Both the position numbers and the translations under genes were made by a program. Below the pieces are notes generated by a model that worked only from the letters and a program-made list of their open reading frames with translations, did no database searches and was not told the origin of the DNA. From positions 196,626,052 to 196,690,051 of the forward strand of contig CP136067.1 in assembly GCA_032622095.1 (NCBI GenBank): a DNA stretch of 64,000 bases, in the 5' to 3' direction. This document shows, one piece after another, positions 17,854 through 30,256 of this stretch (position 1 is the stretch's first letter; every line of letters starts with the position of its first letter). Origin of the DNA: Siphonodentalium dalli (Eukaryota; Mollusca; Scaphopoda; Gadilida; Siphonodentaliidae).

Positions 17854-18065
17854 TTATTTTTTAATCATAAGATGTTTTGGGAACCACTCAGGGCGAGATT
17901 TCTTCATTTCCACAATATATTTTCCGTCATGCTTAGTTCTGTCCTCATCCTCGCCTTCATATATAAATGCCACTTCCTGTTTCGGAGAATCAAACTTAAA
18001 CATGTCCACTCCCATTGCAGCTTTCATAGCAGCAGTCTCCTTGCGAACTTTATCATAGCACACAC
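17854..18065 (-). CDS. MRPL32: MRPL32 terminal exon
   Basis: Two bases complete the junction glycine, then VCYDKVRKETAAMKAAMG and an acidic stretch (YEGEDEDR), ending in MIKK and a TAA at 17856-17854. The cysteine following the junction forms the second zinc-binding pair C-G-V-C with the upstream exon. The acceptor TGTCTGTTTTCAG lies at 18066-18078. The acceptor and the first 22 exon bases are the first unit of the minisatellite that follows. The acidic tail and final R-P-x-W-F motif agree with the MRPL32 C-terminus. Confidence 0.88.
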
Positions 18066-21000
18066 CTGAAAACAGACAGCGAACTTTATCATAGCACACA
18101 CCTGAAAACAGACAGCGAACTTTATCATAGCACACACCTGAAAACAGACAGCGAACTTTATCATAGCACACACCTGAAAACAGACAGCGAACTTTATCAT
18201 TGCACACACCTGAAAACAGACAGCGAACTTTATCATAGCACACACCTGAAAACAGACAGCGAACTTTATCATAGCACACACCTGAAAACAGACAGCGAAC
18301 TTTATCATAGCACACACCTGAAAACAGACAGCGAACTTTATCATAGCACACACCTGAAAACAGACAGCGAACTTTATCATAGCACACACCTGAAAACAGA
18401 CAGCGAACTTTATCATAGCACACACCTGAAAACAGACAGATATTACATATGTTAACCCTCATAGCACACACCTTAAAACAGACAGCGAACTTTATCATAG
18501 CACACACCTGAAAACAGACAGCGAACTTTATCATAGCACACACCTGAAAACAGACAGCGAACTTTATTATAGCACACACCTGAAAACAGACAGCGAACTT
18601 TATCATAGCACACACCTGAAAACAGACAGCGAACTTTATCATAGCACACACCTGAAAACAGACAGCGAACTTTGTCATAGCACACACCTGAAAACAGACA
18701 GCGAACTTTATCATAGCACACACCTGAAAACAGACAGCGAACTTTATCATAGCACACGCCTGAAAACAGACAGCGAACTTTATCATAGCACACGCCTGAA
18801 AACAGACAGCGAACTTTATCATAGCACACATCTGAAAACAGACAGCGAACTTTATCATAGCACACACCTGAAAACAGACAGAAATTACATATGTTAACCC
18901 TCATAGCACACACCTGAAAACAGACAGAAATTACATATGTTAACCCTCATAGCACACACCTGAAAACAGACAGAAATTACATATGTTAACCCTCATAGCA
19001 CACACCTGAAAACAGACAGAAATTACATATGTTAACCCTCATAGCACACACCTGAAAACAGACAGCGAACTTTGTCATAGCACACACCTGAAAACAGACA
19101 GCGAACTTTATCATAGCACACACCTGAAAACAGACAGCGAACTTTGTAATAGCACACACCTGAAAACAGACAGCGAACTTTATCATAGCACACACCTGAA
19201 AACAGACAGCGAACTTTATCATAGCACACGCCTGAAAACAGACAGCGAACTTTATCATAGCACACGCCTGAAAACAGACAGCGAACTTTATCATAGCACA
19301 CATCTGAAAACAGACAGCGAACTTTATCATAGCACACACCTGAAAACAGACAGAAATTACATATGTTAACCCTCATAGCACACACCTGAAAACAGACAGA
19401 AATTACATATGTTAACCCTCATAGCACACACCTGAAAACAGACAGAAATTACATATGTTAACCCTCATAGCACACACCTGAAAACAGACAGAAATTACAT
19501 ATGTTAACCCTCATAGCACACACCTGAAAACAGACAGCGAACTTTGTCATAGCACACACCTGAAAACAGACAGCGAACTTTATCATAGCACACACCTGAA
19601 AACAGACAGCGAACTTTGTAATAGCACACACCTGAAAACAGACAGCGAACTTTATCATAGCACACACCTGAAAACAGACAGCGAACTTTATCATAGCACA
19701 CATCTGAAACCAGACAGCGAACTTTATCATAGCACACACCTGAAAACAGACAGAAATTACATATGTTAACCCTCATAGCACACACCTGAAAACAGACAGA
19801 AATTACATATGTTAACCCTCATAGCACACACCTGAAAACAGACAGAAATTACATATGTTAACCCTCATAGCACACACCTGAAAACAGACAGAAATTACAT
19901 ATGTTAACCAGACATGACTGGAGCTTCCTGAAATTTAGTAAAAACCCTGTGCCAATGCATTGTCATATATTTGAGAGACTCCCATAGGAAGCCTTGCATA
20001 TATAAGAGAATACATCGGCCTAACAATATTTACCTTGACCTTGAATGACAGTGCATTCTCTTATATATGCAAGGCTCCCAATAGGAGACTTGCATATATA
20101 GCAGGATGTTATGGGAAGTATAGATCTAAAGTATCAAATTAACATTGTTTAACCAACTTCAACTGGGGAACTTCAATCTGATCCTAGGCTTCCCATAGCA
20201 ATTGAGGTTTAAGCAGAATGAGGTTCCCAGAGGGTGAATTTGGTGATCGTGATACTAACCTGCCGTGCGGGATAGCGTCACTAAATTCACACTCTGGGGA
20301 CCTCATTCTGCAAATGACAGGCACATTATTTGCAGACTTGATTATCATAAAACAATATAATGAGAGGAGGACTACAGTAATGCCCAAAGTATATGACCCT
20401 TTAACCACAGCAGAATTATGGGAAATTTGTCAGGATTTAGTCGGAAATATGGCTTGTTGCCATTCCGATGAATGGCAGCAAGCCATATTTCCGACTAAAT
20501 CCTGAAAAAATTTCCCATAGTTCTGCTGTGGTTTAGGAGTTGATTATTTAGGATTATACTGTATGTCTACAGAATTGTGATCTTGTATAAACTTCAGCAT
20601 CAAACGGCTACTCTGTAACTGTGGCATGGAGCTTTCATGACCTAAATGATTTGAGTGAACAACCACTTTATAAATACCTTCTATTTTCTTGACACAATTG
20701 CCAGTTATATTGCCAAATGAAAATTAATTCATGGTTATCAAAAATGTTTAATTAAAAAAAGTCTCACAATAAAATAACACAGTCTGGGTACTAATACAGA
20801 AGGATTTGTCATAAGATATTTTGAAATTTGGTACCCAAACCTTTTTACAAACTGTACCCACAAAAACAGCAATATAAGGGTATGTTAAACCAATCTGTTT
20901 CCAAAGGGGACAAGAATTATGGCTGCAGCCAGGATTGTTTCATTGTCCTTTCAAGCCAACCTGGCATAGCATATATATGACAATTCAGTTCGCCTGGAGG

Positions 21001-23665
21001 TTATCTAAAATGAAAATGAAACTACTCCTCAAATGCACCAGCGTTTGGAAAGGAATTTATCACAGCAGTGAAAACAACACTAATTTTAATTGACAAAATT
21101 GCTGTTGAACAAACTAGGCTCATTCAAATGTTATTTCATATGTTCTCATCTCAAACTTCATGATCCAAATAATCATACAGGCGGAATAAGTGTACCGGGT
21201 GGACAATTCTGATGAAGCCAATAAGAGTACAGGGCGAAAAAACATTACAAGGTGGCAACTTCCAACAAGAAAGTAAGTCAGTATGATACACTACACCATC
21301 AATCATATATATATATATATTGAGCAAATATCCATGTCGAAAGATGAGAAAATTGTAGAGTAAGCAACACTGACAAGCTGTATGAAATCACATGGGGAGG
21401 AAAAGCTAGAAATGCATTGGAATCAGATTCAGATCATGTTCTTTTATCATAGGAGTTACCAAACAGATTTCCAGCAACATGTTTGCATTTTCTTTGCCTG
21501 ACCTGAATCAGAGTGATGTCTCAAGCAATTCTAGAAGGCCTGCAGTTGTAGCCCGCCTGAATATCCCAATGTTTAATAATCATACTGTCTCAAAAAAACA
21601 CCATACAGGGCGACAGAATTAAAAAACAAATCGTTCAAATTCAAAAGCTCCCATCTAGAGATGATCCTAAACATGCCTGTATATTATCAAAACATGACTT
21701 CAACAACTATGGGCTGCAGGGTGTGCTGAGGGATTTAAATGTAAATATACCAAGATGGCTGCTGGTGGCAATGTTTTTTTTTATACAAATTTTGGAAACA
21801 ATTTGATGACTCCCACCTAGAGGGCATATTGAATATCCATATGAAGTCGGTGATGATCGGATGAGGGATGTGACCTGTAGTGTGTGCCGAAGGATTTAAT
21901 CATGCAAGGACTAAAATCCATTTTCACATTAAGTCCCATATCTCAACTAAAACTGAATGCATGAAAACCAGCTGTACGTAAATATCCGTTGCCCCATGGT
22001 GTTTCATCTGCATATCAACGATCATTCAAATCCGACCGCCAGTGACTGAGATATAGAGCTCCATAGTTTGGATGGACAGAGGACTAGAAGCACGGCCAGA
22101 TGCATGGACGGATGCACGGAACCCCATTTATAATTCGGGTACAGTGTATGCTTATTTTAATCCCAAAAGTAGTACATTTTTGTCACCAGATTATAGTACA
22201 GTTATGCCCTAAATAATCGACTCCTTAACCACAGCAGAAATATGGGTAATTTTTCTGGATTTAGTAAGAAATATGGCTTGAGAGCTTTCCGTTGAATGGC
22301 AACAAGCCATATGTCAGACTAAATCCTGAAAAATTGCCCATAATTCTGCTGTGGTTAAGGAGTCGATTATTTATGGCATTACTGTACTGAATACACCTGT
22401 CATTAAGCCCATCCCTGAGAATAAGCCCAGTCAATGTTTTTGCTCCCAAAAATCATGGGGTGGTGCTAGTAGAAAAGCCCACCCCCAATTTTAGAACTTA
22501 GAGGGCGAGTATATATTGATAACAAGTTAACTCTGAATGAAGATGAAAAAATTCATGCACAAAAAAAACAGCATTACTCCAGCTGATTTCCATTGGCCTT
22601 GAAAACTCATTAATACCACCTGCCCCATTGTGTTTCATAAATGCTGTATTACAAGATATAACATGATCTTTGTTTCTTGTTTTGAATATTTATCTGACAT
22701 AATAAAACACAGAACAAACTATTTTCATTAAATAGAATAATATACATCATGATTGATATTAAAACACAACATTAGATTGGCACTATGAATGCAAACTGAG
22801 ATTTTACATGTGGGGGGGGGGGGGTCCTCAAAGGTAAGCCCAGTCCCAAATTTATGTGTCAAAAAATTCATGGCCCCTCGGGCTTACGCTGAATTGGTCA
22901 CTCTCACAATTGTTTTGTTTTGTTATAAAGGTACCCAGGTTCTGAAAATTGTGATAAAGCTACCCATGTTGGGAAAAAGAGTAATAAAGGTACCCAGGTT
23001 CATCGAATCTCAAATTAAATGAGATGTAAATGTCTAAAATTTGCCCAACAGTTGCTTTCAGTTTTAAATTGTTTGAACTGCTCTAAATTGAAAGGATGTA
23101 GTCCCGATGAAGTATATCAACTAATGTATCCTTTGATATGTAATCCTGCAGTGTAACACAAAAATACCCCGTCAACCGCAGATAAACCTGGGTACCTTTA
23201 TCTCGATTAACCCAACCTGGGCACCTTTATCACAATTTTCACAACCTGGGTACCTTTATCACAATTTTCACAACCTGGGTACATTTATCATAAAAAAACA
23301 GTGAGAGTGACCCATTCAGCCTTACTGATGGGTGTATACAGTACTATTAAACTTACCACAGATTGTTTGATGGGTGTATACAGTACTATTAAACTTACCA
23401 CAGATTGTTTGTGCCTCGTGGTAATTACCGCACTCAAGACATGCTATAATATTCTTCTTTGGCTGGTATTTTTCCATTCTTTTAGTCCAGCCAAACTTTC
23501 GTGTTAATCTTTTCTCCCTGGAACGCCTGCTTTTCGGGACTGCAGCCCACAACATACTGTCAAATATTGAGTCCAATACTGATTTTGAATCATTTTGAGA
23601 GTCTACCTGGCATGCCTTTTGGTTGTACGGTCCAACATCCAAGGCAAATGCTGCACCAGGAAATC
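17854..23665 (-). CDS. MRPL32: MRPL32, mitochondrial ribosomal protein bL32m (last two exons; exon 1 not found)
   Basis: Structural protein of the mitochondrial large ribosomal subunit. It binds rRNA through a basic N-terminal stretch and a zinc ribbon. Two exons are visible: 23665-23399 and 18065-17854. Together they read GFPG..ALDVGP, then LDSIF.SMLWAAVPKSRRS (the bL32 signature VPKxRxS followed by basic residues), then CLEC and CGVC cysteine pairs, KETA..KAAMG, and a C-terminal tail ending near RPEWFPKHL. This matches the layout of vertebrate MRPL32, including a tail with a R-P-x-W-F motif. Intron phase is 1 on both sides and joins cleanly. The visible part is about 159 residues; the vertebrate protein is about 188, so the missing exon 1 should hold the mitochondrial targeting peptide and lie beyond 23665. 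Identification is strong. Assignment of the exact splice sites is inference because both ends of the last intron carry duplicated sites. Confidence 0.9.
18044..19909 (-). repeat. Minisatellite amplified from the MRPL32 splice acceptor (36 x 36 bp + 12 x 46 bp)
   Basis: Blocks along the plus strand are: 11 units of 36 bp (18044-18439), one of 46 bp (18440-18485), 11 of 36 (18486-18881), four of 46 (18882-19065), eight of 36 (19066-19353), four of 46 (19354-19537), six of 36 (19538-19753), three of 46 (19754-19891) and a partial 46-mer to 19909. Almost every unit keeps TGTCTGTTTTCAG followed by GTGTGTGCTATGA on the minus strand, which is the intron end plus the exon start; the 46-mer at 18440-18485 has TTTTAAG instead of TTTTCAG. 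The 36-mer keeps reading frame (12 codons per unit). The 46-mer replaces the exon part with GAGGGTTAACATATG and introduces a stop. The alternating blocks form a higher-order repeat of roughly 400-470 bp. Confidence 0.95.
19906..20100 (+). mobile_element. TTAA MITE family C, copy C6 (right end lost)
   Basis: Begins in the TTAA of a partial 46-bp minisatellite unit (ATATGTTAACC) and continues ACATGACTGGAGCTTCCTG. Two hairpin modules at 19953-20020 and 20050-20100. The right terminus is missing where a family D fragment begins. It marks the 5' boundary of the minisatellite in the MRPL32 intron. Confidence 0.75.
20105..20345. mobile_element. Family D foldback, copy D4 (partial, inverted)
   Basis: Spacer ACTTCAACTGGGGAACTTCA, then a hairpin at 20214-20310 (GAATGAGGTTCCCAGAGGG ... 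GGGGACCTCATTC) and the arm CAAATGACAGGCACATTA. One hairpin only. Confidence 0.7.
20373..20563. mobile_element. TA-target foldback family E, copy E6
   Basis: TA-CAGTAATGCCC at the left; right terminus degenerate (GGATTATACTGTA). Arms intact to a GCCATTCCGATGAATGGC centre. Confidence 0.88.
20564..21629. other. MRPL32 intron sequence, unannotated
   Basis: AT-rich with a short (AT)n run at about 21307; no gene or known repeat recognised. Confidence 0.4.
21630..22140. repeat. Dispersed repeat, inverted relative to 53555-54070
   Basis: Contains CCCATCTAGAGATGATCC, GGTGATGATCGGATGAGGGA and GAAGGATTTAATCATGCA-type blocks. These match the reverse complement of 53580-53800. Internally repeated with a period of roughly 170 bp. 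Confidence 0.6.
22197..22386. mobile_element. TA-target foldback family E, copy E7
   Basis: TA-CAGTTATGCCCTAAATAAT to TGGCATTACTG-TA; foldback arms intact with a small central deletion on the left arm. Confidence 0.88.
22888..23320. mobile_element. 433-bp foldback element with GGTACC-containing subrepeats, 5-bp target duplication
   Basis: Terminal inverted repeats GCTGAATTGGTCACTCTCAC (22888-22907) and its complement with one mismatch (23301-23320). Both flanks carry CTTAC (22883-22887 and 23321-23325), a likely 5-bp target duplication. Each arm holds several copies of a ~29 bp motif with AAAGGTACCCAGGTT and AAAATTGTGAT. It lies in the MRPL32 intron, 31 bp from the duplicated donor. Family not recognised. 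Confidence 0.7.
23327..23411 (-). repeat. 42-bp tandem duplication of the MRPL32 exon end and splice donor
   Basis: Two near-identical 42-bp copies lie head to tail. Each contains the exon end (codons for QTICG), the donor GTAAGT, and intron bases up to GTATACACCC on the minus strand. Because 42 is a multiple of three, the intervening sequence is open (KFNSTVYTHQTICG), so both donors are frame-compatible with the downstream exon. Confidence 0.9.
23399..23665 (-). CDS. MRPL32: MRPL32 internal exon (bL32 signature and first zinc-ribbon cysteines)
   Basis: The acceptor is a pyrimidine-rich stretch ending in CATTCCAG just upstream of 23665. Two bases complete a phase-1 codon, followed by 88 codons and one base before a GTAAGT donor at 23398-23393. 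The exon holds the bL32 hallmark AAVPKSRRSREKR and the first zinc knuckle (CLEC), and ends in TIC-G so that the second cysteine pair spans the junction. A second, identical donor lies 42 bp downstream, ending the exon at 23357. Using it would add 14 in-frame residues. Confidence 0.88.
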
Positions 23666-23975
23666 CTGGAATGAAATTTAAAATATGTAGTAAACTAGAG
23701 GTGTGACAGTCCCAATGAGACTAAGGACTAAGGACACCCCCCCCCCCCCCCCCATAGTGCACATGGGCTACAATAAAGGTAGCCATATTAAAAGGATATG
23801 GCTCTTTCGGTCCTCATGACGGATGTGGGACAAAAATACATTCAACCAGTCTCGTAATCGCAGGCGGCCAGGTTTCCATGGTGTTAATATATGTGGTATG
23901 TTTCATATGTACATTGCTAAACATTTCTAAGTCGAAAGGGGATAACTATAGTAAAAACAAGAGATTGCACCGGAG
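23666..23975. other. MRPL32 intron (upstream side), no exon seen
   Basis: Carries a C-homopolymer run at about 23739-23753. No candidate for MRPL32 exon 1 (targeting peptide followed by a phase-1 donor) was found here. Confidence 0.4.
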
Positions 23976-23983
23976 GTGCTGAC

Positions 23984-25051
23984 TAGGGTCCTGCGAATAT
24001 TCGATATTCGATTCGAGATTCGATTCGAAATTCAAATTCGATTCGAATTCGAGTCGAAAATTCCAACTCGAAATTTCGAATATACACTGACGAAAAAGTA
24101 GGCTGTTTACGGACAAGTACACACGTCGATCATAGCTGTTTCGGTGCCATTTAATTCCCGAAAATTATGAATATATGTACCTAATAATGCTTAATGTACA
24201 TCGCGAAATTTATATAAGTATAATAATAGTAAGTATTGCCAGTAATTAGCCACTATAGGACGACTAAATACATCTGAATTCTAGCTTTGGTAGCATGATA
24301 GCCAAAAGCTCGGAGATCGCCGATGGACCGACGACGCGAGTAAATTATAATAGCTATGAGACTGAGCAACCGCTACCGTTATCCGCCGACTATCCGTCTC
24401 AGATTCCGCATTATGTAATATAGCTGAGAGCCTGAGAGTGTAAACAACACATGTTCCCGGCGTCGAAAAGTGCGTGTGGGTGGTTTATTTTAAACATGAT
24501 AAAGCTGCAGGAACTTACACGTGTGATGAATGCAACATGGTGTATAAATCGCAAGCATCTGGGACAACGACCCATCTATGGAACCATCTGTCCAAGAAGC
24601 ATCCAGCACTACATAAACAGGCTACCCTGCGATTGTTGTTGCATCTTCAAGTTTATAACGACAGGTGTTTCCAAATGCAGATTTCCAATTTTGCATGTAC
24701 ATGCAAACTGTACAAATTTCGCATGATTTTAGTTCCGATAATCCGTTTAGTGGTAATATATTAATCGTCGTGATGGCCGCATGGATGTTTTAATCTTTTT
24801 TTTTCCACGACAATTATCAATGGAAGTTATTTAATAGTATCGCGAATGACAGTTGATCGCCACATAAGTTATGATGGAACTTCATGGAAGTTCATAGGAC
24901 GTATCACAAATCATCTAATCTGATTACCATTGACAAAACATGCCTATTGAAAATGCAACAAACAGGTATGATTCGATTCGATATTCGGTTCGATTTCGTC
25001 GATTCGATTCGATATTCGATTCGATCAAAATCTCCAATTCGCAGGACCCTA
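23984..25051 (+). mobile_element. hAT element H1, non-autonomous, with BED zinc-finger exon
   Basis: Terminal inverted repeats TAGGGTCCTGCGAAT and its exact complement. Flanked by the 8-bp duplication GTGCTGAC at 23976-23983 and 25052-25059, the size expected for hAT. Subterminal regions are built of ATTCGATTCGA repeats in both arms. Length is 1068 bp, too short for a transposase; only a BED-finger exon remains. The right end from 24998 on is included in the downstream 2.63-kb tandem duplication. Confidence 0.92.
24471..24618 (+). pseudogene. BED-type zinc-finger exon of a hAT transposase (decayed)
   Basis: The frame reads VWVVYFKHDKAAGTYTCDEC, then MVYKSQASGTTTHLWNHLSK and KHPALHK: aromatic residues, C-x2-C and the H...H pair of a BED finger, as in ZBED-like hAT transposases. 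The expected upstream residues ASKSA are in another frame (from an ATG at 24450), so a one-base frameshift lies near 24470. No catalytic hAT domain follows. This is a transposon relic, not a host gene. Confidence 0.8.
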
Positions 25052-27625
25052 GTGCTGACATACCCCCACGGTGGCAAATTAGAACCAACAAAGTATGGGA
25101 GAGTTATCTGCCTGGACAGGAAAAAACCCCAATATTTGCATATAAACAAAGAAAAATAACTGTAGAATGGAAAACATGAACAAAACGATTGAAAACTCAA
25201 TTGATTGTCATCATAATAGCGAACATCCATACCATATTTCATTGATATCCGTCAACCGGTGGTGGAGATACAGACAAAAAACCAACACTTCCAAATCTAC
25301 AAAGTTGAATAACTCTAGAACGGATAACCGGAAAAAAATGACTGAACACTCAATAAAATGATTGAACATTCAATTGATTGCCTTCATAGTAGTGAACATC
25401 CATTTCATTGAAATTAATCAACCGGCGGTGGAGATATCTGCTCGGATGGACCAAAAAAAACTACATTTCCAGATAAACAAAGATGAATAACTCTAAAACT
25501 GAAAATCCGGCAAAAACAATTGAACACTCTGTTGAATGCCCTCAAAGTTGTGAAAATTCAAACAAAATTTTATTCAGATCTGACAACTGGTGTCTGAGAT
25601 AACTGCCCGGATGGACAGACGGACCAACAGAAAAAATGGAGGGATAGATGTCCAGATGGACGGAATGACAGACAGACGAATGGATGAGGTCAATCCAGTA
25701 TACCCCCCCCATTCTCTTTGAGAGTGGGGGTACAAAGAGTTTGGATGTATCTCATAATTGCAGGGGCACAGGTTCCGATGATATAAAACACTAACCACTT
25801 TGTTACAGGGGATATACAAACAATATCTACATGTACTTGTTTAAACAATATTCGCAGTTGTTGGAAATTCTAATTAAAATCTGCAGATAGATGCATACCC
25901 AACCCATCCCTTTAATGATAATATAGTGCGGAAGGTGGTCTTAAACCTTAAACTCAAATACGTAATGATTTGCCAGTTTTTGTGATGTTTATCACTTCCA
26001 ACTCCAAAAATCACCAAATTCGTAAATATGTTGACTCTCCATCTGAGTCAAGGGCTTAGAACACATGTGACAGGTTGGTCAGGGACGTAGTTCTGGATAC
26101 GACTGGACAGTTTTGGCCATGCCAAAAACTGGACGATAAACTTTGTGTGAGTTATAAAAATATACATTGGAACAGTCTAATATTCATTTGGATGGGTATT
26201 AAGGTAATAAAAGCAGATGTCAGGCAGAAAAACAGATAATATAAGAGCAGAATGATTCATGTTCATTGGTAGGAAATGTTCAGATAATAAGTTCAACAAA
26301 CGACATATTTTCTGAATATTTCCCAAGGGAGCTACTCGTCAAAGAGTATTTAGTATAGAACAGGTTAAGTGCCAAATCGTTTCTAAATTAAGAAAATTGC
26401 GTTGACTTACATCTTTATACACCCTGATGTACATAATATAATACATGTACATATATCCTATTATTTCTTTTGAGCTTGGAATGGTTTGGTATTTTTTTTT
26501 AGGACCTTTTTTTATTTTTGGATTAAACCTGGTTGTCAATTGATATTCATAAAAGCACCTAGGCTATTGGGTAATCTTTATCTCATCACAAATATCTTGC
26601 CAACATAATCAGACAGAAGGACAGCTATCATAGTCGCCCATTAATTATTCAATCACATAATCCCATCGAAAAACAGCCGATTTATTGCTGAAAAACAACC
26701 CACATGCTCAAAATTCTCACATCTGGTAAATAACCCACATCCGGGAAAAAGTACAACCCAACACACCAGTCAAATGATAGAGACTAACAGAGAATGAAGA
26801 GAGTAAACGTCGGAGGAAATGAAACAAAGTAGAGATTGTATATTGATATACATTAGATGTCAGAATTCAGGTAAAGTCAGGTAAATTCAACATATTTCTG
26901 TACAAGTTAGCAGATGGGACCTTTTCAACAATTCCCAACCGGCCTGAGGTCTACGCAATATCTTGTTTTAAGCGTATATGCAAACAAAATAAAAACCTCG
27001 GCAGATCCGAACTCAACCAATCTCATCACTGGTTACCTTGACTGCTTTAAGTTGCATTGACGGTTATTGCAACCATGTTGAAGCAACATTGGAACCACGT
27101 TGCATTAATACTAGAAACGCGTTAAGGGTCATTTTGCAATGCGGTCGTGGAAAACACTTATTTTGAGAATATGTGTACATGTATACAGTGTATTCTTTAT
27201 AAGATGTAACAATTCAGGTAAAGTCAGGTAAATTTAACATGTCTTTGTTTTGCTCATTTGATGGTCATGTCTGTTCTGTTATCTGGGTAGCTGGGAATGA
27301 TGTCACTTCCTCTGTGACTCATAACCATCCATATCGCCATTTTGTTTCTGAGCATCGTGTGAAAGTAACTGGTGTTCTGAAAAAAGAGTCTGCTCTGTCA
27401 TATGGGTGGCTGGGAGTGAAATCACTTCTTCGGGTGCATTAGAAGCTGGGTAATCAGTACTCTTCGGCACAGGCACTTTGTAGAAAACATTATTTACATA
27501 ATATATAATATATAAGACAAGGCCAGACATCTTTCGGTTTCCGATTCCCAAAATTCGTTCCATTTCTGACTCACCAAACCGATTATGGCCGCGTAAACAG
27601 CATTGTCGCTTCTTTTTCTTCTTTC
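24998..27625. repeat. 2.63-kb tandem duplication, copy 1
   Basis: 24998-27625 is repeated head to tail at 27626-30256 with only about a dozen small differences seen (for example +8 bp at 28245 and -4 bp near 28540). All three junctions share TTTC. The unit includes the right end of hAT H1, a repeat with a GACAGACGGAC-rich tail (25560-25735), a family F fragment (26272-26366) and otherwise unrecognised sequence. Confidence 0.95.
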
Positions 27626-30256
27626 GTCGATTCGATTCGATATTCGATTCGATCAAAATCTCCAATTCGCAGGACCCTAGTGCTGACATACCCCCACGGT
27701 GGCAAATTAGAACCAACAAAGTATGGGAGAGTTATCTGCCTGGACAGGAAAAAACCCCAACATTTGCATATAAACAAAGAAAAATAACTGTAGAATGGAA
27801 AACATGAACAAAACGATTGAAAACTCAATTGATTGTTATCATAATAGCGAACATCCATACCATATTTCATTGATATCCGTCAACCGGTGGTGGAGATACA
27901 GACAAAAAACCAACACTTCCAAATCTACAAAGTTGAATAACTCTAGAACGGATAACCGGAAAAAAATGACTGAACACTCAATAAAATGATTGAACATTCA
28001 ATTGATTGCCTTCATAGTAGTGAACATCCATTTCATTGAAATTAATCAACCGGCGATGGAGATATCTGCTCGGATGGACCAAAAAAAACTACATTTCCAG
28101 ATAAACAAAGATGAATAACTCTAAAACTGAAAATCCAGAAAAAACAATTGAACACTCTGTTGAATGCCCTCAAAGTTGTGAAAATTCAAACAAAATTTTA
28201 TTCAGATCTGACAACTGGTGTCTGAGATAACTGCCCGGATGGACAGACGGACAGACGCACCAACAGAAAAAATGGAGGGATAGATGTCCAGATGGACGGA
28301 ATGACAGACAGACGAATGGATGAGGTCAATCCAGTATACCCCCCCCATTCTCTTTGAGAGTGGGGGTACAAAGAGTTTGGATGTATCTCATAATTGCAGG
28401 GGCACAGGTTCCGATGATATAAAACACTAACCACTTTGTTACAGGGGATATACAAACAATATCTACATGTACTTGTTTAAACAATATTCGCAGTTGTTGG
28501 AAATTCTTATTAAAATCTGCAGATAGATGCATACCCAACCCCTTTAATGATAATATAGTGCGGAAGGTGGTCTTAAACCTTAAACTCAAATACGTAATGA
28601 TTTGCCGGTTTTTGTGATGTTTATCACTTCCAACTCCAAAAATCACCAAATTCGTAAATATGTTGACTCTCCATCTGAGTCAAGGGCTTAGAACACATGT
28701 GACAGGTTGGTCAGGGACGTAGTTCTGGATACGACTGGACAGTTTTGGCCATGCCAAAAACTGGACGATAAACTTTGTGTGGGTTATAAAAATATACATT
28801 GGAACAGTCTAATATTCATTTGGATGGGTATTAAGGTAATAAAAGCAGATGTCAGGCAGAAAAACAGATAATATAAGAGCAGAATGATTCATGTTCATTG
28901 GTAGGAAATGTTCAGATAATAAGTTCAACAAACGACATATTTTCTGAATATTTCCCAAGGGAGCTACTCGTCAAAGAGTATTTAGTATAGAACAGGTTAA
29001 GTGCCAAATCGTTTCTAAATTAAGAAAATCGCGTTGACTTACATCTTTATACACCCTGATGTACATAATATAATACATGTACATATATCCTATTATTTCT
29101 TTTGAGCTTGGAATGGTTTGGTATTTTTTTTTAGGACCTTTTTTTATTTTTGGATTAAACCTGGTTGTCAATTGATATTCATAAAAGCACCTAGGCTATT
29201 GGGTAATCTTTATCTCATCACAAATATCTTGCCAACATAATCAGACAGAAGGACAGCTATCATAGTCGCCCATTAATTATTCAATCACATAATCCCATCG
29301 AAAAACAGCCGATTTATTGCTGAAAAACAACCCACATGCTCAAAATTCTCACATCTGGTAAATAACCCACATCCGGGAAAAGTACAACCCAACACACCAG
29401 TCAAATGATAGAGACTAACAGAGAATGAAGAGAGTAAACGTCGGAGGAAATGAAACAAAGTAGAGATTGTATATTGATATACATTAGATGTCAGAATTCA
29501 GGTAAAGTCAGGTAAATTCAACATATTTCTGTACAAGTTAGCAGATGGGACCTTTTCAACAATTCCCAACCGGCCTGAGGTCTACGCAATATCTTGTTTT
29601 AAGCGTATATGCAAACAAAATAAAAACCTCGGCAGATCCGAACTCAACCAATCTCATCACTGGTTACCTTGACTGCTTTAAGTTGCATTGACGGTTATTG
29701 CAACCATGTTGAAGCAACATTGGAACCACGTTGCATTAATACTAGAAACGCGTTAAGGGTCATTTTGCAATGCGGTCGTGGAAAACACTTATTTTGAGAA
29801 TATGTGTACATGTATACAGTGTATTCTTTATAAGATGTAACAATTCAGGTAAAGTCAGGTAAATTTAACATGTCTTTGTTTTGCTCATTTGATGGTCATG
29901 TCTGTTCTGTTATCTGGGTAGCTGGGAATGATGTCACTTCCTCTGTGACTCATAACCATCCATATCGCCATTTTGTTTCTGAGCATCGTGTGAAAGTAAC
30001 CGGTGTTCTGAAAAAAGAGTCTGCTCTGTCATATGGGTGGCTGGGAGTGAAATCACTTCTTCAGGTGCATTAGAAGCTGGGTAATCAGTACTCTTCGGCA
30101 CAGGCACTTTGTAGAAAACATTATTTACATAATATATAATATATAAGACAAGGCCAGACATCTTTCGGTTTCCGATTCCCAAAATTCGTTCCATTTCTGA
30201 CTCACCAAACCGATTATGGCCGCGTAAACGGCATTGTCGCTTCTTTTTCTTCTTTC
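27626..30256. repeat. 2.63-kb tandem duplication, copy 2
   Basis: Second copy, beginning within the subterminal repeats of H1. An orphan right hAT terminus (ATTCGCAGGACCCTA, ending 27679) therefore stands without its left end. Its right junction at 30256 is followed by unique sequence. Confidence 0.95.

Follow-up and report, generated by a model that had tools for sequence, protein, structure and literature searches.

A splice-acceptor minisatellite in MRPL32 of Siphonodentalium dalli and the occurrence of tandem junction copies in the same genome

Tandem duplication over an intron–exon boundary is an event of an already known kind. In potato, such a duplication in the RdRp gene produced a new intron, proven at the RNA level, whose donor is a GT from the exon part, and two fission yeast genes, SPOG_01682 and SOCG_00815, have exonic 24-bp arrays with AGGT in which introns run across four and two duplicates, respectively (available part of PMC4974935, where the yeast cases are cited). 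A 2012 review, in its accessible portion, names tandem duplication as the sole route of intron gain demonstrated in vivo (PMC3443670). The MRPL32 array of the scaphopod Siphonodentalium dalli resembles the potato case in duplicating an intron–exon boundary, but that event was a single duplication with an RNA-proven new intron, whereas MRPL32 has 48 acceptor copies, described here from DNA; the fission yeast arrays share short tandem units with AGGT but are purely exonic segments present in few copies (PMC4974935, available part). In intron gain by this route the copies supply both splice dinucleotides, as they do here; the difference is that an existing junction has been copied many fold, in donors as well as acceptors (accessible portions of PMC3443670 and PMC2891723). 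Coding repeats are described in the available text of a prawn lectin paper (PMC7536079). Ordinary intronic minisatellites have unit length, head-to-tail order and block copying in common with the MRPL32 array, but the MRPL32 unit holds a splice acceptor and coding sequence. Known recursive splice sites have strong donors and are placed singly in long introns, and their acceptor and donor stand back to back (CAG|GT), as in the MRPL32 units; those units, in contrast, read GTGTGTG and lie in tandem by the dozen. A recursive site also requires a donor strong enough to serve after the first step; the donor of the MRPL32 units has a moderate score. Zhuo 2007 and Gao & Lynch 2009 reportedly deal with intron gain by tandem duplication.

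The window (the whole stretch of DNA that was analysed, 64,000 nucleotides) contains two exons of MRPL32, which encodes the mitoribosomal protein bL32m, and a duplication at the donor of the intron between them:

17854..18065, minus strand: last MRPL32 (bL32m) coding exon; begins after the exon-proximal acceptor, whose AG ends at 18066, and closes with the stop codon (open frame, phmmer)
23399..23665, minus strand: upstream MRPL32 exon with donor GT at 23398 (sequence, open frame, phmmer; 5' end, with acceptor at 23666, placed by eye)
23326..23411, minus strand: exact 42-bp x 2 tandem duplication over the donor of the same intron, which adds a further in-frame donor GT at 23356

Both identified exons are intact and their reading frame is open. 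When joined, they matched mitoribosomal bL32m with phmmer (E 2.6e-23) and Pfam PF01783 (Ribosomal_L32p, 4.2e-7), in agreement with the gene assignment made in a first-pass annotation of this DNA, and the bL32m alignment runs through the junction ICG|VCYDKVRKETA with zero extra residues. QueH and SopD, which also appeared for the joined exons, were below their Pfam cut-offs and were rejected. No Pfam match was obtained with the last exon alone or with an open frame of 348 residues that takes in some of the array. A protein search of the assembly matched just these two exons and found no second MRPL32 copy. The donor duplication had previously been overlooked. The upstream part of the gene (window positions 25000-30254) contains two stretches, about 2.6 kb apart, that look near-identical by eye, and Tandem Repeats Finder lists an identical repeat row at each of the positions 25335 and 27963.

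At the acceptor of the last exon, two features frame the repeated region:

18043..19909, minus strand: minisatellite of acceptor plus exon start (Tandem Repeats Finder, unit list, interval counts)
19878..19909, minus strand: uninterrupted intron end GGTTAACATATGTAATTTCTGTCTGTTTTCAG at the outer array edge (unit list)

The array comprises 48 acceptor copies on the minus strand, separated by 47 intervals (35 of 36 bp and 12 of 46 bp), which confirms that this MRPL32 boundary has been amplified into a minisatellite. Tandem Repeats Finder reported a 36-bp period over 18043-19753 (45 copies, 93% matches) and 46-bp blocks up to 19909 (100% matches), so the units are head to tail, within the size range of minisatellites (about 10-100 bp), and highly identical. 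Each 36-bp unit consists of 13 intron bases and 23 exon bases, and each 46-bp unit of a longer intron end that includes TTAAC and about 13 exon bases. As judged from the unit list and from the bL32m alignment through the junction, the repeated unit carries sequence from both sides of the intron–exon boundary, as in a tandem genomic duplication that spans such a boundary. By eye, TTAAC is carried by the 46-bp units and absent from the 36-bp units; an argument for a branch point built on this by-eye observation and on the branch-point consensus was set aside. Within the window the 26-mer TGTCTGTTTTCAGGTGTGTGCTATGA has 36 exact matches, every one of them on the minus strand; the plus strand has none. 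The earlier statement that almost every unit contains this sequence thus holds exactly for 36 of the 48 copies, and the other 12 differ from it by small changes.

Three aspects of the array had escaped the first-pass annotation: the AG|GT junctions, the block structure, and the uninterrupted intron end. The exon part begins with GT in 41 of the 48 copies, making their junction AG|GT, the copied exon GT that characterizes intron gain by tandem duplication. Clusters of 46-bp units begin at 18855, 19327, and 19727 (spacing 472 and 400 bp), and the 36-bp units between them have variants in common, in partly the same order, which indicates block copying as well. The intron end at 19878..19909 is probably the ancestral copy. 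When the exon plus one unit was used as a query against the 2.23-Gb assembly, 44 matches were returned, all at the MRPL32 locus, by a search that skips common words. Introners are similar copies dispersed over many genes, and in this same search the unit matched MRPL32 alone; a mobile element was accordingly rejected as the source of the array.

The extra acceptors have different consequences for the protein depending on their position, and two segments mark the transition:

18066..18425, minus strand: ten 36-bp units whose inclusion leaves the frame open, encoding VCYDKVRCLFSG repeats (unit list, frame check)
18426..18471, minus strand: first 46-bp unit outward from the exon, which as exon reads VCYEG-stop (unit list, frame check)

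The 36-bp unit preserves frame, as had been proposed. Eleven of the 48 acceptors (exon starts 18425 to 18065) lead into a frame that is open to the normal C-terminus, with products of 70 to 190 residues counted from the split glycine codon. The 11 nearest units had been described as open, with 12 residues per unit; there are indeed 11 open acceptors, adding 0 to 10 units of 12 residues each, but the added units number at most ten. The other 37 acceptors run into a stop. The stop ascribed to the 46-bp unit is found where it was placed, but it does not account for the next 11 acceptors outward (exon starts 18867 to 18507), which stop earlier, in a TTTTAAG variant unit that precedes the 46-bp unit. 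Since 37 of the 48 acceptors would truncate the protein, a working MRPL32 must avoid or remove these 37.

Whether the MRPL32 array is special was assessed by a survey of exons from conserved families (chaperonin, kinesin, MCM, and myosin) in the same genome. The matches taken were 30 and a further 20 of 53 for chaperonin, 113 of 123 for kinesin, 23 of 24 for MCM, and 24 of 85 for myosin; copies that were probably redundant, an MCM match lying in a frame of 707 residues, and a large part of a myosin cluster were left out, by a selection made before those regions were looked at. A cluster of myosin-head exons at about 274.2-275.5 Mb of G000 C4 has numerous members that are nearly identical to one another and score the same or almost the same. 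The first 30 loci gave rise to the idea, and the 180 later regions were picked before inspection. The 210 records (208 after L001 and L002 were dropped before counting; 73 gene clusters) include some near-identical paralogue pairs, and 46 of the 210 matches contain a stop, attributable to intron overhang or to pseudogenes and counted together. L001 and L002, both chaperonin matches, differ from the split genes in that their frames run without interruption for 604 and 648 residues. A tandem detector with a period range of 15-250 bp found 69 arrays in the 210 records, 21 of which overlap the exon match, and none in 60 control records of resampled sequence. By eye, 19 of these 21 were called as junction-spanning, with junction positions set by hand; the remaining two, L106 and L208, were dropped because the repeat reaches the acceptor without copying the AG. 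Their arrays, of 40 and 20 bp, may supply the pyrimidine tract of that acceptor.

Tandem copies across a splice junction were thus present in 19 of the 208 exon records, about one exon in eleven, and in 16 of the 180 later regions, at odds with the earlier view that the MRPL32 array lacks a counterpart. The records are:

Donor arrays (n=14): L021, L025, L040, L079, L081, L087, L095, L102, L107, L117, L157, L165, L169, L193
Acceptor arrays (n=5): L007, L110, L138, L166, L210

Copy numbers can be high: the chaperonin exon L025 has nine extra donor copies, five of which keep the GT, and the kinesin exon L081 has at least ten. Two duplicated donors and one duplicated acceptor (L169, L025, and L007) lie within about 35 kb of each other (G000 C2, about 20.44-20.48 Mb) and are apparently junctions of a single chaperonin gene. 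Frequent use of the extra copies would be expected to favour periods that are multiples of three. Selection for in-frame periods was proposed after four cases (36, 42, 39, and 63 bp) and was dropped when the wider survey gave 7 of 19; remainders of 0, 1, and 2 occurred 7, 6, and 6 times, and multiples of three made up 5 of the 16 arrays outside the first 30 loci. Inclusion of the nearest extra copy would shift the frame in 12 of the 19 arrays, introduce an in-frame stop in two, and leave the frame open in five. The surveyed families are conserved, so the copy that touches the exon is presumably the working one. Among the extra copies, MRPL32 included, GT or AG is kept in 118 of 126 versus about 108 expected, a figure that is biased upward because similarity-based copy finding favours intact dinucleotides and that includes doubtful far copies in L210. 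Retention at about the expected rate suggests that the junction copies are not being purged.

The placement of arrays relative to the junction was also considered. On the donor side, array coverage was 6.1% at the junction versus 4.9-6.1% in the intron at 60-300 bp, and on the acceptor side 3.4% versus 3.8-4.8% in nearby intron, a comparison that lacks independence, since an array at a junction continues into the intron. Beyond 350 bp, for the first loci only, donor-side coverage was 0.3-2.5% and acceptor-side coverage 1.5-12.8%. Among the 180 short records, donor-side array ends fell 12 times in the last 90 exon bases versus 15 times in the next 300 intron bases (one-sided p 0.012, with the L040 endpoint set by hand); the corresponding acceptor-side numbers were 6 and 15 (p 0.35), giving no excess. 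Enrichment of arrays at junctions therefore stands as a tentative reading and not as a finding, the coverage profile being flat near the exon and the endpoint excess confined to the donor side. Junction cases also cluster in genes, with seven same-gene pairs versus 2.2 expected (p 0.014). Like the array-end test, this is a small, post hoc comparison; together, the donor-side excess and the clustering suggest that placement is not plainly random.

The reading favoured here, at a probability of roughly 0.6, is that the MRPL32 array is a young passenger minisatellite, one case of a common junction-crossing duplication that splicing tolerates. The array would have grown over the acceptor of the last exon through successive rounds of tandem duplication and through the copying of blocks, in a genome where short tandem duplications may cross junctions about as freely as they arise in nearby intron. 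A duplication of this kind always leaves one intact junction adjoining the exon, and splicing from that exon-proximal copy would keep the protein unchanged and make the array a passenger. Such tolerance would also explain the retention of GT and AG in extra copies, given that one intact junction always remains beside the exon. The alignment of bL32m through the MRPL32 junction without added residues supports the passenger reading; the donor-side end excess (p 0.012) and the gene clustering (p 0.014) count against it. A further difficulty comes from the rule that the first AG is used in splicing, which is not easily reconciled with the presence in MRPL32 of 47 additional acceptors ahead of the one that fits the protein. 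Direct use of the exon-proximal acceptor is nevertheless most likely, and the array itself is probably young and probably without a selected role.

The main alternative to direct exon-proximal use is removal of the excess units by splicing itself. The exon start GTGTGTG would act as a donor, and runs of units would be spliced out as GT...AG introns, stepwise or at once, so that the array would be transparent at any length and would retrace the tandem-duplication route to new introns dozens of times over. Consistent with this, 41 of the 48 copies are AG|GT junctions, and the unit donor CAG|GTGTGT scores 5.07, above 10 of 15 hand-called donors of this genome (range 0.8-7.88). However, the usual donor is GTRAGT, from which GTGTGT differs, and a single 36-bp unit would be very short as an animal intron, although two or more units would suffice. 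Among the six acceptor arrays, AG|GT occurs in three (MRPL32, L007, and L210), versus 30 of 173 called acceptors (p 0.07), but the other three (L110, L138, and L166) lack it, and the donor arrays are left unexplained. The potato RdRp duplication, where the donor of the new intron came from the exon part, is a precedent (PMC4974935, available part). On balance, self-removal of the array is rather unlikely.

The first-pass annotation had suggested that the array acts as a splice decoy of variable length, or that it gives rise to MRPL32 isoforms in which VCYDKVRCLFSG is repeated. The 11 open acceptors, with which between none and ten 12-residue units would be added, would permit such isoforms, and the duplicated MRPL32 donor is likewise in frame; set against this are the 37 of 48 acceptors that truncate, the lack of any insertion at the junction in the matched mitoribosomal proteins, and the lack of frame preference in other junction arrays. 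With no excess of multiples of three and the nearest copy breaking the protein in 14 of the 19 arrays, the survey lends this function no support, and the in-frame period of MRPL32 is what chance would give one time in three; a decoy or isoform role is thus improbable. The same truncating acceptors could instead mean that splicing is disturbed and MRPL32 reduced, with the assembly having caught a deleterious allele, but the coding exons are intact, the assembly yielded no second MRPL32 copy, and similar arrays occur in other conserved genes, which makes a failing gene or allele very unlikely. That the array, read here from one assembly, or its length is an assembly error is very improbable: the units differ from one another by variants arranged in ordered blocks, the frame is intact where the array meets a real gene boundary, and comparable arrays exist at other loci.

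The potato RdRp boundary duplication is a published counterpart of the kind that had been thought missing (PMC4974935, available part), and what looks unusual is the copy number, at 48 acceptors, together with how often such arrays occur locally, in 19 of 208 records. In a mostly openly accessible literature, the titles and abstract openings of the papers listed showed neither a splice-acceptor minisatellite nor a genome-wide report of duplicated junctions, and no counterpart appeared in the available parts of PMC9311317, PMC9860276, and PMC3488318 (for the last, a reference list).

Junction repeats in this genome look like a widespread, tolerated quirk and not like a purpose-built switch. Tentatively, S. 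dalli may represent a lineage with a high rate of tandem junction duplication (19 of 208 records, up to 48 near-identical sites) in which the spliceosome reliably selects the exon-adjoining copy, or else removes the others one unit at a time. The donor-side excess and the gene clustering hint that junctions could be true hot spots; in that case transcription or splicing would itself drive the duplication of its own signals. The choice of the spliceosome among identical sites has been studied mostly with engineered duplicates; here, natural examples are found in conserved genes for which the correct protein is known, where donors or acceptors have between 1 and 47 extra copies. The frequency of junction duplication also bears on the origin of new introns and alternative sites. 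The main value of the finding extends beyond the MRPL32 array: the genome as a whole seems to contain numerous natural experiments on how splice sites are chosen.
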